Assembly: GCA_011525365.1 (NCBI GenBank)
Contig: WTGQ01000003.1
Span: forward strand, 124,001-188,000
Reading direction: 5' to 3'
Length of the DNA stretch: 64,000 nucleotides
Source of the DNA: Acidobacteriota bacterium
GTDB taxonomy: Bacteria; Acidobacteriota; Thermoanaerobaculia; Multivoradales; Multivoraceae
Part shown: positions 47,814 through 52,873 of the stretch, one piece after another
Layout: the number at the start of each line of letters is the position of its first letter
How positions within the stretch are numbered: the first letter of the stretch is position 1
The notes under the pieces: model-generated
The model's input: only the letters and a program-made list of their open reading frames with translations
Database searches by the model: none
What the model was told of the DNA's origin: nothing
Made by a program: the position numbers and the translations under genes

Positions 47814-49030
47814 TCTTCCTCCCCGCCGCCCGCGTACAGTGCTTCGACGGCCGGCAGTCTCTCGCCGGCCAGCAGCGCCAGGGAAGCGCCGCCGCCGGTC
47901 GAGACGTGATCGATTCTCTCCGACAGGTTCTCCTGCCGGACCGCCGCCACCGTCTCCCCGCCGCCGATCACGGTGAACCCGCCGCAGGCGGCGACGGCCC
48001 GGGCCACGGCGAGGCTCCCGGCATCGAAGGGCGGTGTCTCGAAGACCCCCATCGGACCGTTCCAGAACAGCGTCGCGGCGCCGGCGACCGCGGCTTCGAA
48101 GGCGGTCCGGGTTTCCGGTCCGATGTCGACCGCGAGCCAGCCGGCCGGCACGCTGTCCTCCATCGGCACCGTGCGAACCCGCCGTTCCGGGGGCGTCGCT
48201 TCGAGCGAATCCGTGACCACGACGTCGATCGGCAGGAGCAGCTCGGCGCCGCCGGCCGCGGTCTCGGTCTCGATCTCACGCGCCAGGTCGAGGCTCTCCG
48301 ACTCGACCAGCGAGGAACCGAGTTCGGCGCCGCGGGCGGCCAGGAACGTGTTCGACATGCCTCCGCCGACCAGGACACGGTCGACCAGGGGCAGCAGGCG
48401 TCGCAGGGCGCCGATCTTGCCCCGGATCTTCGCGCCTCCGGTGACGAGCACGAATGGCCGCGGCGGGTCGTCGAGCAGCCGGCTGAGCTGCCGCAGTTCA
48501 CGGTCGAGCAGCAGTCCGCTGAAGGCCTGCTCGACCAGGCCGCAGATGGCGGCGGTGGAGGCATGGGCGCGGTGGGCGGTACCGAAAGCGTCGTTGACGT
48601 AGAGCTCGCCGAGTGCGGCCAGTTCGGCGGCGAACGCCGGATCGTTCGCTTCCTCGCCGTCGTGGAAGCGGAGGTTCTCGCAGAGCAGCGCGTCCCCGTC
48701 GCCGAGCGCGGCGGCGGCGTTCCGGGCAGCCGGCCCGACACAGTCCGCGGCGAAGGCGACGGGCCGGTCGAGGATCGAGGACAGGGCGCCGGCGACCGGA
48801 CGCAGGCTGAGTCCCGGATCGACCACGCCCCGTGGCCGGCCGCGGTGGGACAGCAGGACGACGTGGGCGCCCGCGTCGCGGAGAGCGTCGATCGTGGGCG
48901 CCGCTTCCCGCAGGCGGGTCGCGTCGAGCACCCGTTCGCCGTCCATCGGGACGTTGAAGTCGACCCGGACGATGACGCGCCGGCCTCGCAGGGCGAGTGA
49001 GCCGTCACGGAAGCTCGGTGGGAAGATCAA
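47810..49030 (-). CDS. pgk: Phosphoglycerate kinase
   Basis: Glycolytic ATP-forming kinase, 406 residues. Substrate motif VIVRVDFNVPM, LLSHRGRP, ENLRFHDGEEAND, the hinge VTGGAKIRGKIG, and nucleotide motifs WNGPMGVFE and STGGGASLALL are in order. The start is a TTG with no strong ribosome site. gap, which often precedes pgk, is not here. Confidence 0.96.
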   Translation of the reverse strand: MIFPPSFRDGSLALRGRRVIVRVDFNVPMDGERVLDATRLREAAPTIDALRDAGAHVVLLSHRGRPRGVVDPGLSLRPVAGALSSILDRPVAFAADCVGPAARNAAAALGDGDALLCENLRFHDGEEANDPAFAAELAALGELYVNDAFGTAHRAHASTAAICGLVEQAFSGLLLDRELRQLSRLLDDPPRPFVLVTGGAKIRGKIGALRRLLPLVDRVLVGGGMSNTFLAARGAELGSSLVESESLDLAREIETETAAGGAELLLPIDVVVTDSLEATPPERRVRTVPMEDSVPAGWLAVDIGPETRTAFEAAVAGAATLFWNGPMGVFETPPFDAGSLAVARAVAACGGFTVIGGGETVAAVRQENLSERIDHVSTGGGASLALLAGERLPAVEALYAGGGEEE

Positions 49031-49077
49031 GGTCGCGATCTCGGTGGGCCGCCGCGCCGGCCGGCGTCGGTCAGGGG

Positions 49078-49088
49078 GAGGATAACGT
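49078..49088. promoter_or_regulatory. Overlapping divergent -10 boxes (pgk and tsaD)
   Basis: AGGATAACGT holds minus TATCCT (49083-49078) facing pgk and plus TAACGT (49083-49088) ending 7 bases before the tsaD ATG. The two boxes share one base pair, so the promoters may exclude each other. Confidence 0.45.
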
Positions 49089-49095
49089 CGCCGGC

Positions 49096-50199
49096 ATGTC
49101 CGCGGGCAACGAAGCGGCCGGCCCGTTCGAGGGCTTCGTCCTCGGCATCGAGACCTCCTGCGACGACACCGCCTGCGCGGTGCTCGACGCGGAGGGTCGC
49201 GTGCTCTCTTCCGTGGTCTCGAGCCAACTGGACGTGCACCGTCCGTTCGGCGGCGTGGTGCCGGAGGTGGCGTCGCGGGAACACCTCCGCAACTGGCCGG
49301 CGGTGTCGGCGGCGGCGCTTCAGGAGGCGGGCGTCGACTGGTCCGACGTCGGCGCGGTGGCGGCGACCCGTGGGCCCGGCCTCGTGGGGTCGCTGCTCGT
49401 TGGACTCTCTCTCGGCAAGGCGATCAGCTACTCGCTCGGCGTGCCCTTCCTTGCCGTGCATCACCTGGAGGGCCACCTCTTCTCGCCCCTGCTGCGGACC
49501 GACGGCGCAAGCCGGTCCGTTCCCGAGTCGATGGTCGGCCTGGTCGTTTCCGGCGGCCATACCAGCCTGCTCGCCGTCGACGGTCCGTCCGGCGCCGTGA
49601 CCAGCCTGGCCGAGACCCGGGACGATGCGATCGGCGAGGCCTTCGACAAGATCGGCCACCGGGTCGGTCTGCCGTTCCCGGCCGGCGCCGAGGTCGATCG
49701 GCTGGCCGAGCTCGGCGATCCGGCGGCGCAGCCGTTCCGTGTGGCCAGGATCAAGTCCGACGAACTGGCGTTCTCGTACTCGGGACTGAAGAGCCAGGCG
49801 CTGCGCGCGCTCGGCGAGATCGAGGCGGGGAACGGTCATGCCGCGGAAACGCCGGCCGATGGCGCCGGCGACGACGGGTCCTGGCCGCGGGAGGTGCTCG
49901 ATCTGTTCGCCGGTTTCCGGCGGGCAGCGGTCGCGCAGTTGATCGACCGTCTGGACCGGCTCTGCGACGAGCGGCCGGTGGAGCGGCTCTCCGTCTCGGG
50001 CGGCGTGGCGGCGAACCGCCTGCTGCGGCGGGAGGTCGTGCTCTGGGGCGAACGTCGAGGCGCCGACGTGCTGCTCGTGCCGCTTCGCTACTGCGGAGAC
50101 AACGCGGCGATGATCGCCCACGCCGGCCTGCTGCGCCTCCGCCGCGGCGACACCGACGACCCGCGCTCCGCGGATGCGGAAAGCCGCATCCCCTTCTGA
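49096..50199 (+). CDS. tsaD: tRNA threonylcarbamoyladenosine transferase TsaD
   Basis: Transfers threonylcarbamoyl to A37 of ANN-decoding tRNAs, 367 residues. Motifs are LGIETSCDDTACAVL, the metal ligand histidines in HHLEGHLFS, SGGHTSLLAV, FDKIGHRVGLPFPAG and SVSGGVAANRLLR. The leaderless promoter TAACGT supports the ATG at 49096. Confidence 0.97.
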   Translation: MSAGNEAAGPFEGFVLGIETSCDDTACAVLDAEGRVLSSVVSSQLDVHRPFGGVVPEVASREHLRNWPAVSAAALQEAGVDWSDVGAVAATRGPGLVGSLLVGLSLGKAISYSLGVPFLAVHHLEGHLFSPLLRTDGASRSVPESMVGLVVSGGHTSLLAVDGPSGAVTSLAETRDDAIGEAFDKIGHRVGLPFPAGAEVDRLAELGDPAAQPFRVARIKSDELAFSYSGLKSQALRALGEIEAGNGHAAETPADGAGDDGSWPREVLDLFAGFRRAAVAQLIDRLDRLCDERPVERLSVSGGVAANRLLRREVVLWGERRGADVLLVPLRYCGDNAAMIAHAGLLRLRRGDTDDPRSADAESRIPF

Positions 50200-50225
50200 C
50201 GCGCCCTGACGGCGTTCTTGCGGTG

Positions 50226-50245
50226 CCCGGGTCAGAAGACCCGGG
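50226..50245. repeat. Extragenic palindrome, copy d
   Basis: CCCGGGTC and GACCCGGG arms around AGAA, with TCACTA after. Identical in arms and tail to copy b, lying between the convergent tsaD and thiG genes. Confidence 0.75.
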
Positions 50246-50271
50246 TCACTAGGCGGGGCTAGGCCGTGGCC

Positions 50272-51051
50272 TTAGCCCAACACGCCCTCCGCCGGGGACG
50301 ACGCCGTCGCATACAACTTCCGCGGGATCCGCCCGGCGTTGGCCGCCAGCCAGCCGGCTTCGACGGCCAGCTTCATCGCGCGCGCCATCCGCACCGGATC
50401 CTGGGCGCCGGCGACGCCGGTGTTCATCAGCACGCCGTCCGCGCCCAGCTCCATCGCCAGGGCGGCGTCGCTCGCGGTGCCGACGCCGGCGTCCACGATG
50501 ACCGGCACGTTCGCCTGCTCGACGATGATTCGCAGGTTCGCCGGATTGCGGATGCCCATCCCCGAGCCGATCGGCGCCGCGAGCGGCATCACCGCGGCCG
50601 CGCCGAGGTCCTCGAGCTTGCGGCAGGTGATCGGATCGTCCGTCGTGTAGGGAAGCACGATGAAGTCGTCGGCGACCAGTTCCCGGGTTGCCGCGAGCAG
50701 TTCCTCGTTGTCGGGGAAGAGGGTCTTCTCGTCGCCGATCACCTCCAGCTTGACCCAGTTCCAGCCACCGAGTTCGCGTGCCAGCCGCGCCGTCCGCACC
50801 GCCTCGTCCGCGGTGTAGCAGGCGGCGGTGTTGGGCAGCAGCAGGTAGCGGTCCTGGTCGATGTGGTCGATCAGCGAGCCTTTGCCCAGGTCGTCGAGGT
50901 TGACGCGCCGCAGGGCCACCGTGACCATCTCGGTGCCGGAGGCGTCGAAGGCGTCGACCATCACCTGTTCGTCGCTGTACTTGCCGGTGCCGAGGATGAG
51001 ACGCGAGCGGAACTCGCGGCCGGCGATGACGAGAGGCTCTGGAGTGGTCAT
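50272..51051 (-). CDS. thiG: Thiazole synthase
   Basis: Forms the thiamine thiazole ring, 259 residues. It begins at the ATG of [20 protein letters not shown]. The Schiff-base lysine is in [10 protein letters not shown], with [24 protein letters not shown] and [18 protein letters not shown] for phosphate binding. ThiS and ThiH/ThiO are not adjacent. It follows the kinase gene by 10 bases on the same strand. Confidence 0.94.
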
Positions 51052-51061
51052 GGCAAAGGTC

Positions 51062-51712
51062 TCAGGCGCTGCGCGCGGGCACGAAGTACTCGGTGCCGCG
51101 GATCTGCCGCGAGATGTGGTGGAGCAGTTCCTCGAAGTCGGTCGGTTTGTGCTCGAAGTCCATGTTGCGGCTGTCGACGACGAGCAGGGGCGACCCATCG
51201 TAGTGGTAGTAGTGGTGGTTGTAGGCCTCGATCAGCTCGCCCAGGTAGTCGGCCGAGATGTTCTGCTCGATGGCGCGGCTGCGCTTGTGAATCCGCGCCA
51301 TGCAGGTGTCGATGTCGGCGGTCAGGAAGATCAGCAGGTCCGGTTGGCTCAGCTGCGGCTCGAGCAGATCGTAGAGCTTCTCGAACAGCATCAGGTCGCC
51401 GTCCGTCAGGTTCAGGTAGGCGAAGAGTCGGCTCTTCGCGAAAGTGTAGTCGGCCAGGCGAACCGGCTCGAACAGCTCTTCCTGGGCCAGGTCGAGTTGC
51501 TGCTTGTAGCGCGTCAGCAGGAAGTAGAGCTCGGTCTGGAAGGCGGTGCCGGGCCGGTCCCGGTAGAAGGCTTCGAGGAACGGATTGTCCACGTCCTCGA
51601 GGATCTTCACGCCCTCGAAGCGTTGCGCGAGCATCTCGACCAGGGTCGTCTTGCCTACGCCGATCGGTCCGTCGACGGCCAGGTACCGATACGGGAGCGC
51701 GTCTGCGGGCAC
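51062..51712 (-). CDS. Deoxynucleoside kinase
   Basis: Phosphorylates deoxynucleosides for salvage, 216 residues. P-loop [14 protein letters not shown], a [13 protein letters not shown] substrate segment, the DRS-like motif replaced by [10 protein letters not shown], and the lid [13 protein letters not shown] match the dCK/dGK-like family. The GTG start is supported by TATAGT ending 7 bases upstream (51725-51720, minus). Confidence 0.87.
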
Positions 51713-51818
51713 TGCCCGGACTATACAATCCCCCGACGACTACGAGCATGGTGGCGGCGCCGGTTTCAGCCCGCGCCGGAGCACCCCGAAAAGGACTTCC
51801 GATAAGGGGGAGTAGAGA

Positions 51819-52730
51819 GTGGATCCCTGGTGGCGGAGACGCGCGGCGGACGAGAAGACCGAGTCGGTGCGACCGGAGGCGACCAGTCCCGAAGCCGAGG
51901 ACGAGCCGCCGGTCGAGCCGGCGGGCGAAGACGAGCCGGAGGCCGACGCGGGGGCTGACGAAGCGACTGCTCCCGAGCCGGGCGACGACCCGTCGACCGC
52001 GCTCGCGGCAGCCGAGGAAGCCGACGAAGCCGACGACGCGCCCGCGGAGGAGGCCGCCGAGCCTCCCGTGTCCGCGGCTCTCGAGGCTGCGACGGAGCCG
52101 GCCGAGCCGGCCCGGCCGGCCACTGGCGAGGCCGGGGAGGTAGCGCCGGCCAAACGTCGCCGTCGCCGTCGCCGTCGCTCGCGCCGGGGCCGTCGCGGCG
52201 GTGGTTCCCACAGCCAGGGCGAGGGCGGCAAGGACGCCGAAGCGCAGAGCCCGGAGTCCGCGCCGCGGGAGAGGAGGTCGGGCGGCCCGGGCCGCGCCGC
52301 GGTGCTTCTCGACCTGGGCGGTTTGGAGCGGAGCCAGGACGGCGGCCCGGCGCTCGATCTGGAGGGCCTGCTTGCCCGGCTGGACGGAGAACTCGGCAAG
52401 CTCGTCCTGCGTCGCGTCTATGCCGACGCGAGCGACCAACGACTTGATCGCAAGGCACTGCACGGCGGCGGCGCCGAGGTCGTCGACGTGCCGTCGGGTA
52501 CGGAAGTGCGGGGCTGTTCCGCCGCCGTGCGGATCGTGGTGGATGCGCTGGAGCTCTGCTACACGAAACGCAGCGTCCACACGGTCGTGCTGGTGGCGAC
52601 GTCGGTGCAGATGTTGCCCCTGGTCGCCAAGCTTCAGCAGAACGGCGTGACGGTCGTCGGTCTCGGGGGATCGGAGGGCGACGCCCAGGTGCGGGCCCAG
52701 TGTGACCGCTACATCGATCTCTCCGCTTGA
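51819..52730 (+). CDS. NYN-like protein with acidic N-terminus and arginine tract
   Basis: 303 residues. Residues 10-108 are acidic, Ala/Pro/Glu-rich and probably disordered. An arginine tract (about 112-126) follows, then a globular domain (about 158-303) with the layout of NYN/PIN-like nucleases: AVLLDLGGLE, an Arg-Val-Tyr-Ala-Asp strand near 200, VDALELCY and LPLVAKLQQNGVTVVGLG. The usual SGDxDF acidic motif is ATSVQM at 260-265, so nuclease activity is doubtful. GGGGAG precedes the GTG. RNA binding is inferred from the arginine tract only. Confidence 0.6.
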   Translation: MDPWWRRRAADEKTESVRPEATSPEAEDEPPVEPAGEDEPEADAGADEATAPEPGDDPSTALAAAEEADEADDAPAEEAAEPPVSAALEAATEPAEPARPATGEAGEVAPAKRRRRRRRRSRRGRRGGGSHSQGEGGKDAEAQSPESAPRERRSGGPGRAAVLLDLGGLERSQDGGPALDLEGLLARLDGELGKLVLRRVYADASDQRLDRKALHGGGAEVVDVPSGTEVRGCSAAVRIVVDALELCYTKRSVHTVVLVATSVQMLPLVAKLQQNGVTVVGLGGSEGDAQVRAQCDRYIDLSA

Positions 52731-52759
52731 GCGGCGTTCCCCTAACCCCGGCAAGCTGC

Positions 52760-52765
52760 TAGGGT
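52760..52765 (+). promoter_or_regulatory. -10-like TAGGGT before tRNA-Arg
   Basis: TANNNT hexamer 31 bases upstream of the mature tRNA 5' end, a suitable spacing for a short precursor leader. Confidence 0.4.
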
Positions 52766-52796
52766 TCCGCACTCGCTCGGTGCGGCGGCTCGAAAT

Positions 52797-52873
52797 GCAC
52801 CCTTAGCTCAACTGGATAGAGCGTTGGACTACGGATCCAAAGGTTGGGGGTTCGACTCCTCCAGGGTGCACCA
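52797..52873 (+). tRNA. tRNA-Arg (ACG)
   Basis: Acceptor GCACCCT pairs with AGGGTGC, discriminator A, encoded CCA (52871-52873). Anticodon loop CTACGGA gives ACG, so A34 must be deaminated to inosine by TadA (14581-15054). D-loop TAGCTCAACTGGATAGAGC and T-loop GTTCGACTC are normal. Confidence 0.96.

Follow-up and report, generated by a model that had tools for sequence, protein, structure and literature searches.

Genus-wide loss of catalytic aspartates in an NYN-domain protein of Acidobacteriota: a predicted pseudonuclease and possible RNA/RNP-binding adaptor

Introduction

Bacterial proteins that join an NYN (DUF88) domain to an OST-HTH (LOTUS) domain were described as the 'LK-nuclease' family and predicted to be RNases (Anantharaman, Zhang and Aravind 2010, PMC2848206). 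The NYN + OST-HTH family is widespread, and the available sections of the 2010 description suggest a stand-alone RNA-degrading enzyme; no mention of dead family members was found in those sections (PMC2848206). According to the accessible parts of another study, D14, D92 and D115 of the NYN protein VPA0982 correspond to MARF1 residues D358, D426 and D452, and the cleavage activity of an NYN protein from Bacteroides fragilis was abolished by mutating the first Asp alone (PMC11346440). Furthermore, the PIN domain of SMG5 was reported, in the excerpts available, to be without acidic residues and without RNase activity (PMC6294520). In addition, excerpts from work on RNase E condensates propose that Arg-rich charge blocks interact with RNA (PMC10412687). 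No report of a bacterial pseudo-NYN protein was found among the matches listed in the open literature on NYN/LOTUS or inactive NYN proteins.

The present locus lies in a window of 64,000 nucleotides, by which the whole stretch of DNA analysed is meant. The encoded protein has the same NYN fold as the LK-nucleases, and its same-locus orthologues elsewhere in the order have the NYN + OST-HTH architecture. Unlike these, the window protein is without two of the three catalytic Asp and without the OST-HTH domain, and it has a long acidic and Arg-rich N-terminus. On balance, we favour a pseudonuclease confined to this clade that serves as a non-cleaving RNA/RNP-binding adaptor. The computed support for a pseudonuclease consists of the fold, the genus-wide motif loss, the selection, the shared N-terminal architecture and the positional orthology.

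Gene Structure and Protein Layout

The features of the locus are collected in Table 1. The open reading frame at 51819-52730 is a real gene. Its GTG start is preceded by an in-frame TAG (51813-51815) one codon upstream, and the GTG together with the G-rich leader recurred in each of the 21 genus genomes. From the N- to the C-terminus, the protein is made up of the PWW start, the acidic stretch, the Arg tract (KR8SRRGRRGGG) and the NYN domain. Residues 13-110 contained 31 D/E versus 3 K/R. Downstream, K112 was followed by exactly eight Arg (R113-R120) and then by SRRGRRGGG, and the net charge was +13 over residues 111-130, beside the acidic block of −28. The first-pass annotation had described an acidic region and at least eight arginines, and both descriptions were accurate. 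In the full-length model, which was built with 19 sequences and had a pLDDT of 57.2, residues 13-156 were mostly below 50 and are probably disordered.

Table 1. Coordinates of the pseudo-NYN gene, its parts and its neighbours in the window.
Feature	Position	Strand	Remark
TsaD	48997..50199	+	synteny marker
ThiG	50272..51051	−	synteny marker; likely start is the internal ATG 51051
Deoxynucleoside kinase (dNK), divergent neighbour	51062..51712	−	synteny marker
AAGGGGGAG	51804..51812	+	likely ribosome-binding site of the pseudo-NYN gene; G-rich leader kept in the genus
Pseudo-NYN protein	51819..52730	+	303 aa, GTG start; orthologues in 21/21 genus genomes
N-terminal motif MDPWWRR	51819..51839	+	usual form in the order M-x-PWW-x-R-P
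Acidic, probably disordered stretch, residues 13-110	51855..52148	+	net charge −28; model pLDDT mostly <50
Short motif VSAALEAATEPAEPA, residues 84-98	52068..52112	+	part of the disordered stretch; kept across the genus
Arg tract KRRRRRRRRSRRGRRGGG, residues 112-129	52152..52205	+	composition count
NYN domain, residues 159-301	52293..52721	+	Pfam and predicted fold; catalytically dead by motif
D165, sole catalytic Asp kept	52311..52313	+	equivalent of VPA0982 D14
RGCSAAVR, degenerate second motif	52509..52532	+	Ala in place of Asp; corresponds to VPA0982 D92
ATSVQM, degenerate third motif	52596..52613	+	SGDSDF in relatives; first Asp (VPA0982 D115) to Ser, second to Gln
tRNA-Arg(ACG)	52797..52873	+	synteny marker, far side of the inverted segment

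By composition and by the full-length model, the acidic and Arg-rich disordered blocks resemble those of charge-block condensate formers. The C-terminal blocks of RNase E in the BR-bodies of Caulobacter are alike in that Arg-rich and acidic blocks lie in a disordered region, as far as the published excerpts describe them; RNase E is, however, an unrelated protein. It is conceivable that such blocks phase-separate with RNA and that the pseudo-NYN domain is merely a folded module. The adjacency of the two charge blocks, their disorder in the model and the RNase E precedent (PMC10412687, seen in excerpts) would agree with this, but the genus has a single Arg block and the best conserved part of the protein is the folded domain. 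A condensate former is thus considered improbable.

Fold and Catalytic Residues

The NYN layout proposed in the first-pass annotation was borne out by Pfam and by structure comparison. The window protein scored 56.5 bits against PF01936 (NYN), above chance and above the curated cut-off of 24.2, and the AlphaFold2 model of the domain, built with 27 sequences, had a pLDDT of 84.8 and a pTM of 0.83. The model showed the NYN/PIN-like Rossmann fold of the NYN superfamily, with Z-scores of 18.5 for VPA0982 from Vibrio parahaemolyticus (2qip), 18.0 for mouse Marf1 (5yaa) and 17.0 for human MARF1 (6fdl); the next-best structure row had a Z of 7.9. Foldseek agreed with these matches. A single-sequence search of the PDB with the window protein gave chance-level matches only. 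The closest solved structure was VPA0982, with 23% identity and a profile E of 4.8e-11.

The catalytic positions were mapped by profile alignment to 2qip, with the residue numbering verified. All three Asp (D14, D92 and D115) are present in VPA0982, and MARF1 is, in the published excerpts, an active endoribonuclease with D358, D426, D427 and D452. In contrast, the window protein kept D165 only, the second Asp being replaced by Ala and the third by Ser. The first-pass annotation had noted that ATSVQM stands at the position of SGDxDF; this was correct (residues 260-265, SGDSDF in the relatives), and the second motif was lost additionally, with KNSADI of the relatives reading GCSAAV in the window protein. 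Because two of the three catalytic Asp are gone, the cleavage of RNA by this protein is unlikely. Judged by its motifs, the window protein is very probably not a nuclease.

All 21 genus sequences and all three other loci of the family retained the first catalytic Asp, and D165, Cys233, Ser262 and Gln264 were invariant among 19 aligned genus sequences. Such invariance might be expected if D165, Cys233 and Gln264 in the old pocket gave other or residual chemistry. A rewired enzyme is, however, highly improbable: the new residues were by eye not common to the other genera of the family (second Asp replaced by Arg, Arg and Ala), and a change of the first Asp alone stops the Bacteroides NYN protein in the accessible account (PMC11346440), while here the other two are gone. 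The kept first Asp could mean residual metal or ligand binding, which counts against the adaptor reading.

Distribution of the Motif Loss

All 21 genomes of the genus carried the gene, and the motif loss was common to all of them: LLD was kept, the second motif read CS[A/S]AV and the third [A/T][T/S]S[V/I/L]QM. The local profile match did not reach the first Asp in 12 of the 21 genus rows, for which it was read from the comparison that showed the motif loss. Several genomes of near relatives are presumably of sponge origin. The sponge genome papers, in the text available, name Acidobacteriota symbionts in general terms only.

The search of the class gave a match in 114 of 148 genomes, and 111 of these were counted. 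G036 and G043, which matched another NYN subfamily, were dropped, and G021 was excluded, its copy being handled separately. G022 and G023 were counted with their copies off the family locus (L184 and L016), and their locus copies were handled separately. Secondary matches of other NYN subfamilies were excluded; the fragments G037 and G071 were without the NYN columns and G136 without the first column. Outside the genus and the lineage g23/g28, 86 rows remained, drawn from 85 genomes in 49 genera and 15 families. All four acidic positions were kept in each of the 84 fully readable rows; the remaining two were a fragment and a row readable at three positions, which it keeps. The first-pass annotation had raised a loss in all orthologues. 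This held throughout the genus, but not outside the family locus. Because the relatives there keep the acids (84/84), the catalytic loss is, according to the alignments, clade-specific.

In the three other genera of the family (one genome each), the same locus held a degenerate NYN + OST-HTH copy whose linkers were long, acidic and Arg-rich (L188 of g4, L189 of g2 and L190 of g3). These copies began with NPWW[K/R]RP after the start and had Arg-rich and acidic regions; their profile match was 99.5% to the intact family (E 3.7e-22) and 96.9% to the genus domain. The second catalytic Asp was by eye Arg in L188 and L189 and Ala in L190. The third was lost in L188 (Asn or His, depending on the alignment), allowed no alignment in L189, and in L190 was His in one alignment and Asp if a one-residue gap is accepted. 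This possible Asp, which is alignment-dependent, may count against the adaptor reading. Moreover, one family member whose locus copy is degenerate also had an intact NYN copy (L016, G023:C1037). It was without PWW, fell among rows of other orders on a long branch of the gene tree (99% SH-aLRT) and was possibly acquired laterally.

A second lineage of the order showed partly eroded motifs, with OST-HTH and PWW kept (L080, L081 and L082 of g23, and L181 of g28). In g23, L081 was without the second and third catalytic Asp, L080 was without the extra Asp of SGDSDF only, and L082 kept all; the single readable row of g28 was without the second catalytic Asp and the extra Asp of SGDSDF. A gene tree of 104 rows, including 13 of the 21 genus rows, placed the genus together with the eroding rows of g23/g28, which belong to a different taxonomic family; it was not used to count losses, because the grouping was flagged as long branches meeting. 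The losses in the genus and its family and in g23/g28 are possibly independent, which rests on taxonomy and locus, and the tree speaks against it.

Gene Order and OST-HTH Loss

The block TsaD(+) NYN(−) dNK(+) ThiG(+) was found, in either reading direction, in 6 of 20 regions outside the genus, namely L093, L095, L101 and, from the other genera of the family, L203, L204 and L205. Furthermore, L102 had TsaD-NYN-dNK, L092 had TsaD only and L100 had dNK at a distance; the remaining fetched regions had no block genes near NYN, with only PGK, at the edge, in L099. The tRNA-Arg(ACG) lay beyond ThiG in L093, L095, L101 and L204. It was not present in the stretch read of L203, and the stretch of L205 ends within ThiG. 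In the genus, ThiG(−) was ahead of NYN(+) in 18 of 18 named loci, and tRNA-Arg was 3' of NYN in the window and in the eight named loci scanned, all of which had it; TsaD and dNK were not in every genus row of the locus listing, probably by thinning of overlapping matches. The segment ThiG-dNK-NYN (window 50200-52800) is inverted in the genus and not in the six other regions with the block. We infer from the gene order that a single local inversion between TsaD and tRNA-Arg would explain the arrangement in the genus. The block, inverted in the genus, indicates same-locus descent from NYN + OST-HTH orthologues. As a minor point, the ThiG frame as listed overlaps dNK (window 51051-51198), and the internal ATG is the likelier start.

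One inversion breakpoint would coincide with the 3' end of this gene, and OST-HTH may have been lost thereby. In all 21 genus sequences, the frame ended 0-5 aa past NYN; among the relatives from other genera, 40 rows ran 96-116 residues past it, and three rows of another NYN subfamily 93-109 residues. Eight NYN relatives were scanned for OST-HTH with Pfam (cut-off 23.8 bits): L058, L051, L052 and L080 scored 24.3, 31.5, 25.1 and 25.1 bits, L009 and L081 were below the cut-off with 18.8 and 22.6 bits, and L057 and L016 had no match. In the 21 genus genomes, no OST-HTH part was found at E 0.001 with profile A3, with at most 25 candidates scored per genome. The flanks of the 18 named genus loci gave two chance-level OST-HTH matches only (E 2.6 and 4.3), and five control loci each gave at least 94 bits; the second breakpoint was set at fixed locus coordinates, which are unsuited to L046. 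The C-terminal OST-HTH domain of the LK-nucleases is absent from the genus proteins.

Selection

The median dN/dS of the NYN domain in the genus was 0.18 (207 usable of 210 pairs), and that of the disordered part was 0.41 (126 usable of 210 pairs). Compared with the neighbouring dNK gene, the medians were 0.17 for NYN and 0.089 for dNK (170 pairs each). In the same-genus comparison, the value for NYN was 0.19, and the medians of the 20 intact genera that had usable pairs ranged from 0.004 to 0.21, with only one higher. A cross-genus dN/dS of the intact rows (2509 pairs, median 0.318) was set aside in favour of same-genus pairs, since saturated pairs were mixed in. The NYN domain is under purifying but somewhat relaxed selection; the constraint is called relaxed because its dN/dS is about twice that of dNK and ranks second from the top when the genus is set beside the 20 intact genera. 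Catalytic residues are lost and purifying selection is ongoing (median 0.17-0.19), as in a pseudonuclease.

The relaxed dN/dS relative to dNK and most intact genera might alternatively indicate a decaying gene, that is, a nuclease that is no longer needed and is on its way to being lost, perhaps in two separate lineages of this order. The loss of OST-HTH in the genus, the even more diverged copies of the other three genera of the family and the partial erosion in g23 and g28 would be in agreement with decay. However, the frame, the GTG start and the G-rich leader were kept in 21 of 21 genomes, the replacement residues were themselves conserved, and the dN/dS of NYN was well below 1. Decay is therefore unlikely, and the pseudo-NYN gene is very probably functional.

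N-Terminal Motif and Arg Tract

All 21 genus sequences had PWWRR, and PWW followed the start in 3 of 3 other loci of the family and in 29 of 45 other rows of the order, including intact ones. It was found in none of the 44 class rows outside the order (0/44). Of the 16 order rows without PWW, several had short or truncated N-termini. Across the genome, the pattern M/V-x-PWW gave 10 sites compared with 6 in the reversed control. One of the 10 sites was the window gene; eight others were read, none of which resembled a gene starting with PWWRRP. A docking motif shared elsewhere in the genome was thus not supported.

Runs of at least five Arg before NYN, beside acidic stretches, occurred in all 21 genus rows and in 20 of 91 others. 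Runs of at least eight Arg are rare in the window, with 2 of 335 open frames of at least 100 aa (six frames) having one. The longest run in an intact row was 10 Arg (L126), and other rows outside the genus had shorter Arg/Gly-rich tracts. A simple DNA repeat does not account for the Arg run, because the Arg codons differ between the species of the genus while 6-9 Arg were kept in 21 of 21 sequences. The first-pass annotation had taken the acidic/Arg region as a sign against a nuclease, which did not hold. Since some intact orthologues have such runs as well, the Arg tract is not a sign of a switch from nuclease function. PWW was kept in intact and dead forms, and Arg tracts occurred in some of both. 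From these alignments, the Arg tract looks inherited and retained.

Proposed Function

We lean towards an RNA/RNP-binding adaptor as the main role of the protein. Such binding is proposed because of the Arg tract, the RNA context of the family and the precedents of SMG5 and RNase E. In the scheme envisaged, the protein is the positional orthologue of an NYN + OST-HTH LK-nuclease and has lost two of its three metal-binding Asp and, in the genus, the whole OST-HTH domain as well. The Arg tract, with the surface of the pseudo-NYN domain, would bind RNA or RNP, the acidic stretch might tune this binding or self-association, and the PWW N-terminus would dock a putative partner. Several points count against the adaptor reading. 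Long Arg runs are not general in intact orthologues, and GC-rich genomes are expected to have more of them; in addition, the lost OST-HTH is itself the predicted RNA binder, and the constraint on NYN is relaxed.

The likeness to SMG5, drawn from the published description alone, is that of a PIN-like domain without acids; SMG5 differs in being a eukaryotic decay factor. That an SMG5-type PIN domain is without activity in the excerpts available (PMC6294520) would also suit a regulator or decoy of the ribosome or of another nuclease, which would pair or compete with an active enzyme, for instance the other NYN protein encoded in the genome. A second NYN protein with Asp in the third motif (SQDQDL) does exist in the genome, but it seems to belong to a different subfamily and is encoded on another contig, with no linkage seen; a regulator or decoy seems quite improbable. 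This protein (L002, G000:C1:2507612-2508052), which was compared by motif and Pfam, is the only other Pfam NYN match of the genome.

For the adaptor reading, it may be suggested tentatively that the NYN-LOTUS nuclease has a second, cleavage-independent job, carried by PWW, the acidic/Arg tail and the NYN surface, which outlives catalysis; one whole family would have converted the enzyme to a non-cleaving RNA/RNP adaptor, in this genus even after losing LOTUS, with a second lineage part-way. If true, the protein would be a bacterial counterpart of the pseudo-PIN adaptors of the SMG5 type. The order holds a natural series of forms: intact, eroding, dead with LOTUS and dead without LOTUS. Such a series separates the requirements of cutting from the parts kept for other reasons, and thereby points to PWW, the Arg tract and the NYN surface.

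As a minor observation, ARAGORN called a tRNA-Asn opposite the disordered part of one orthologue (L038:4757-4847), which is probably a false call in GC-rich sequence.
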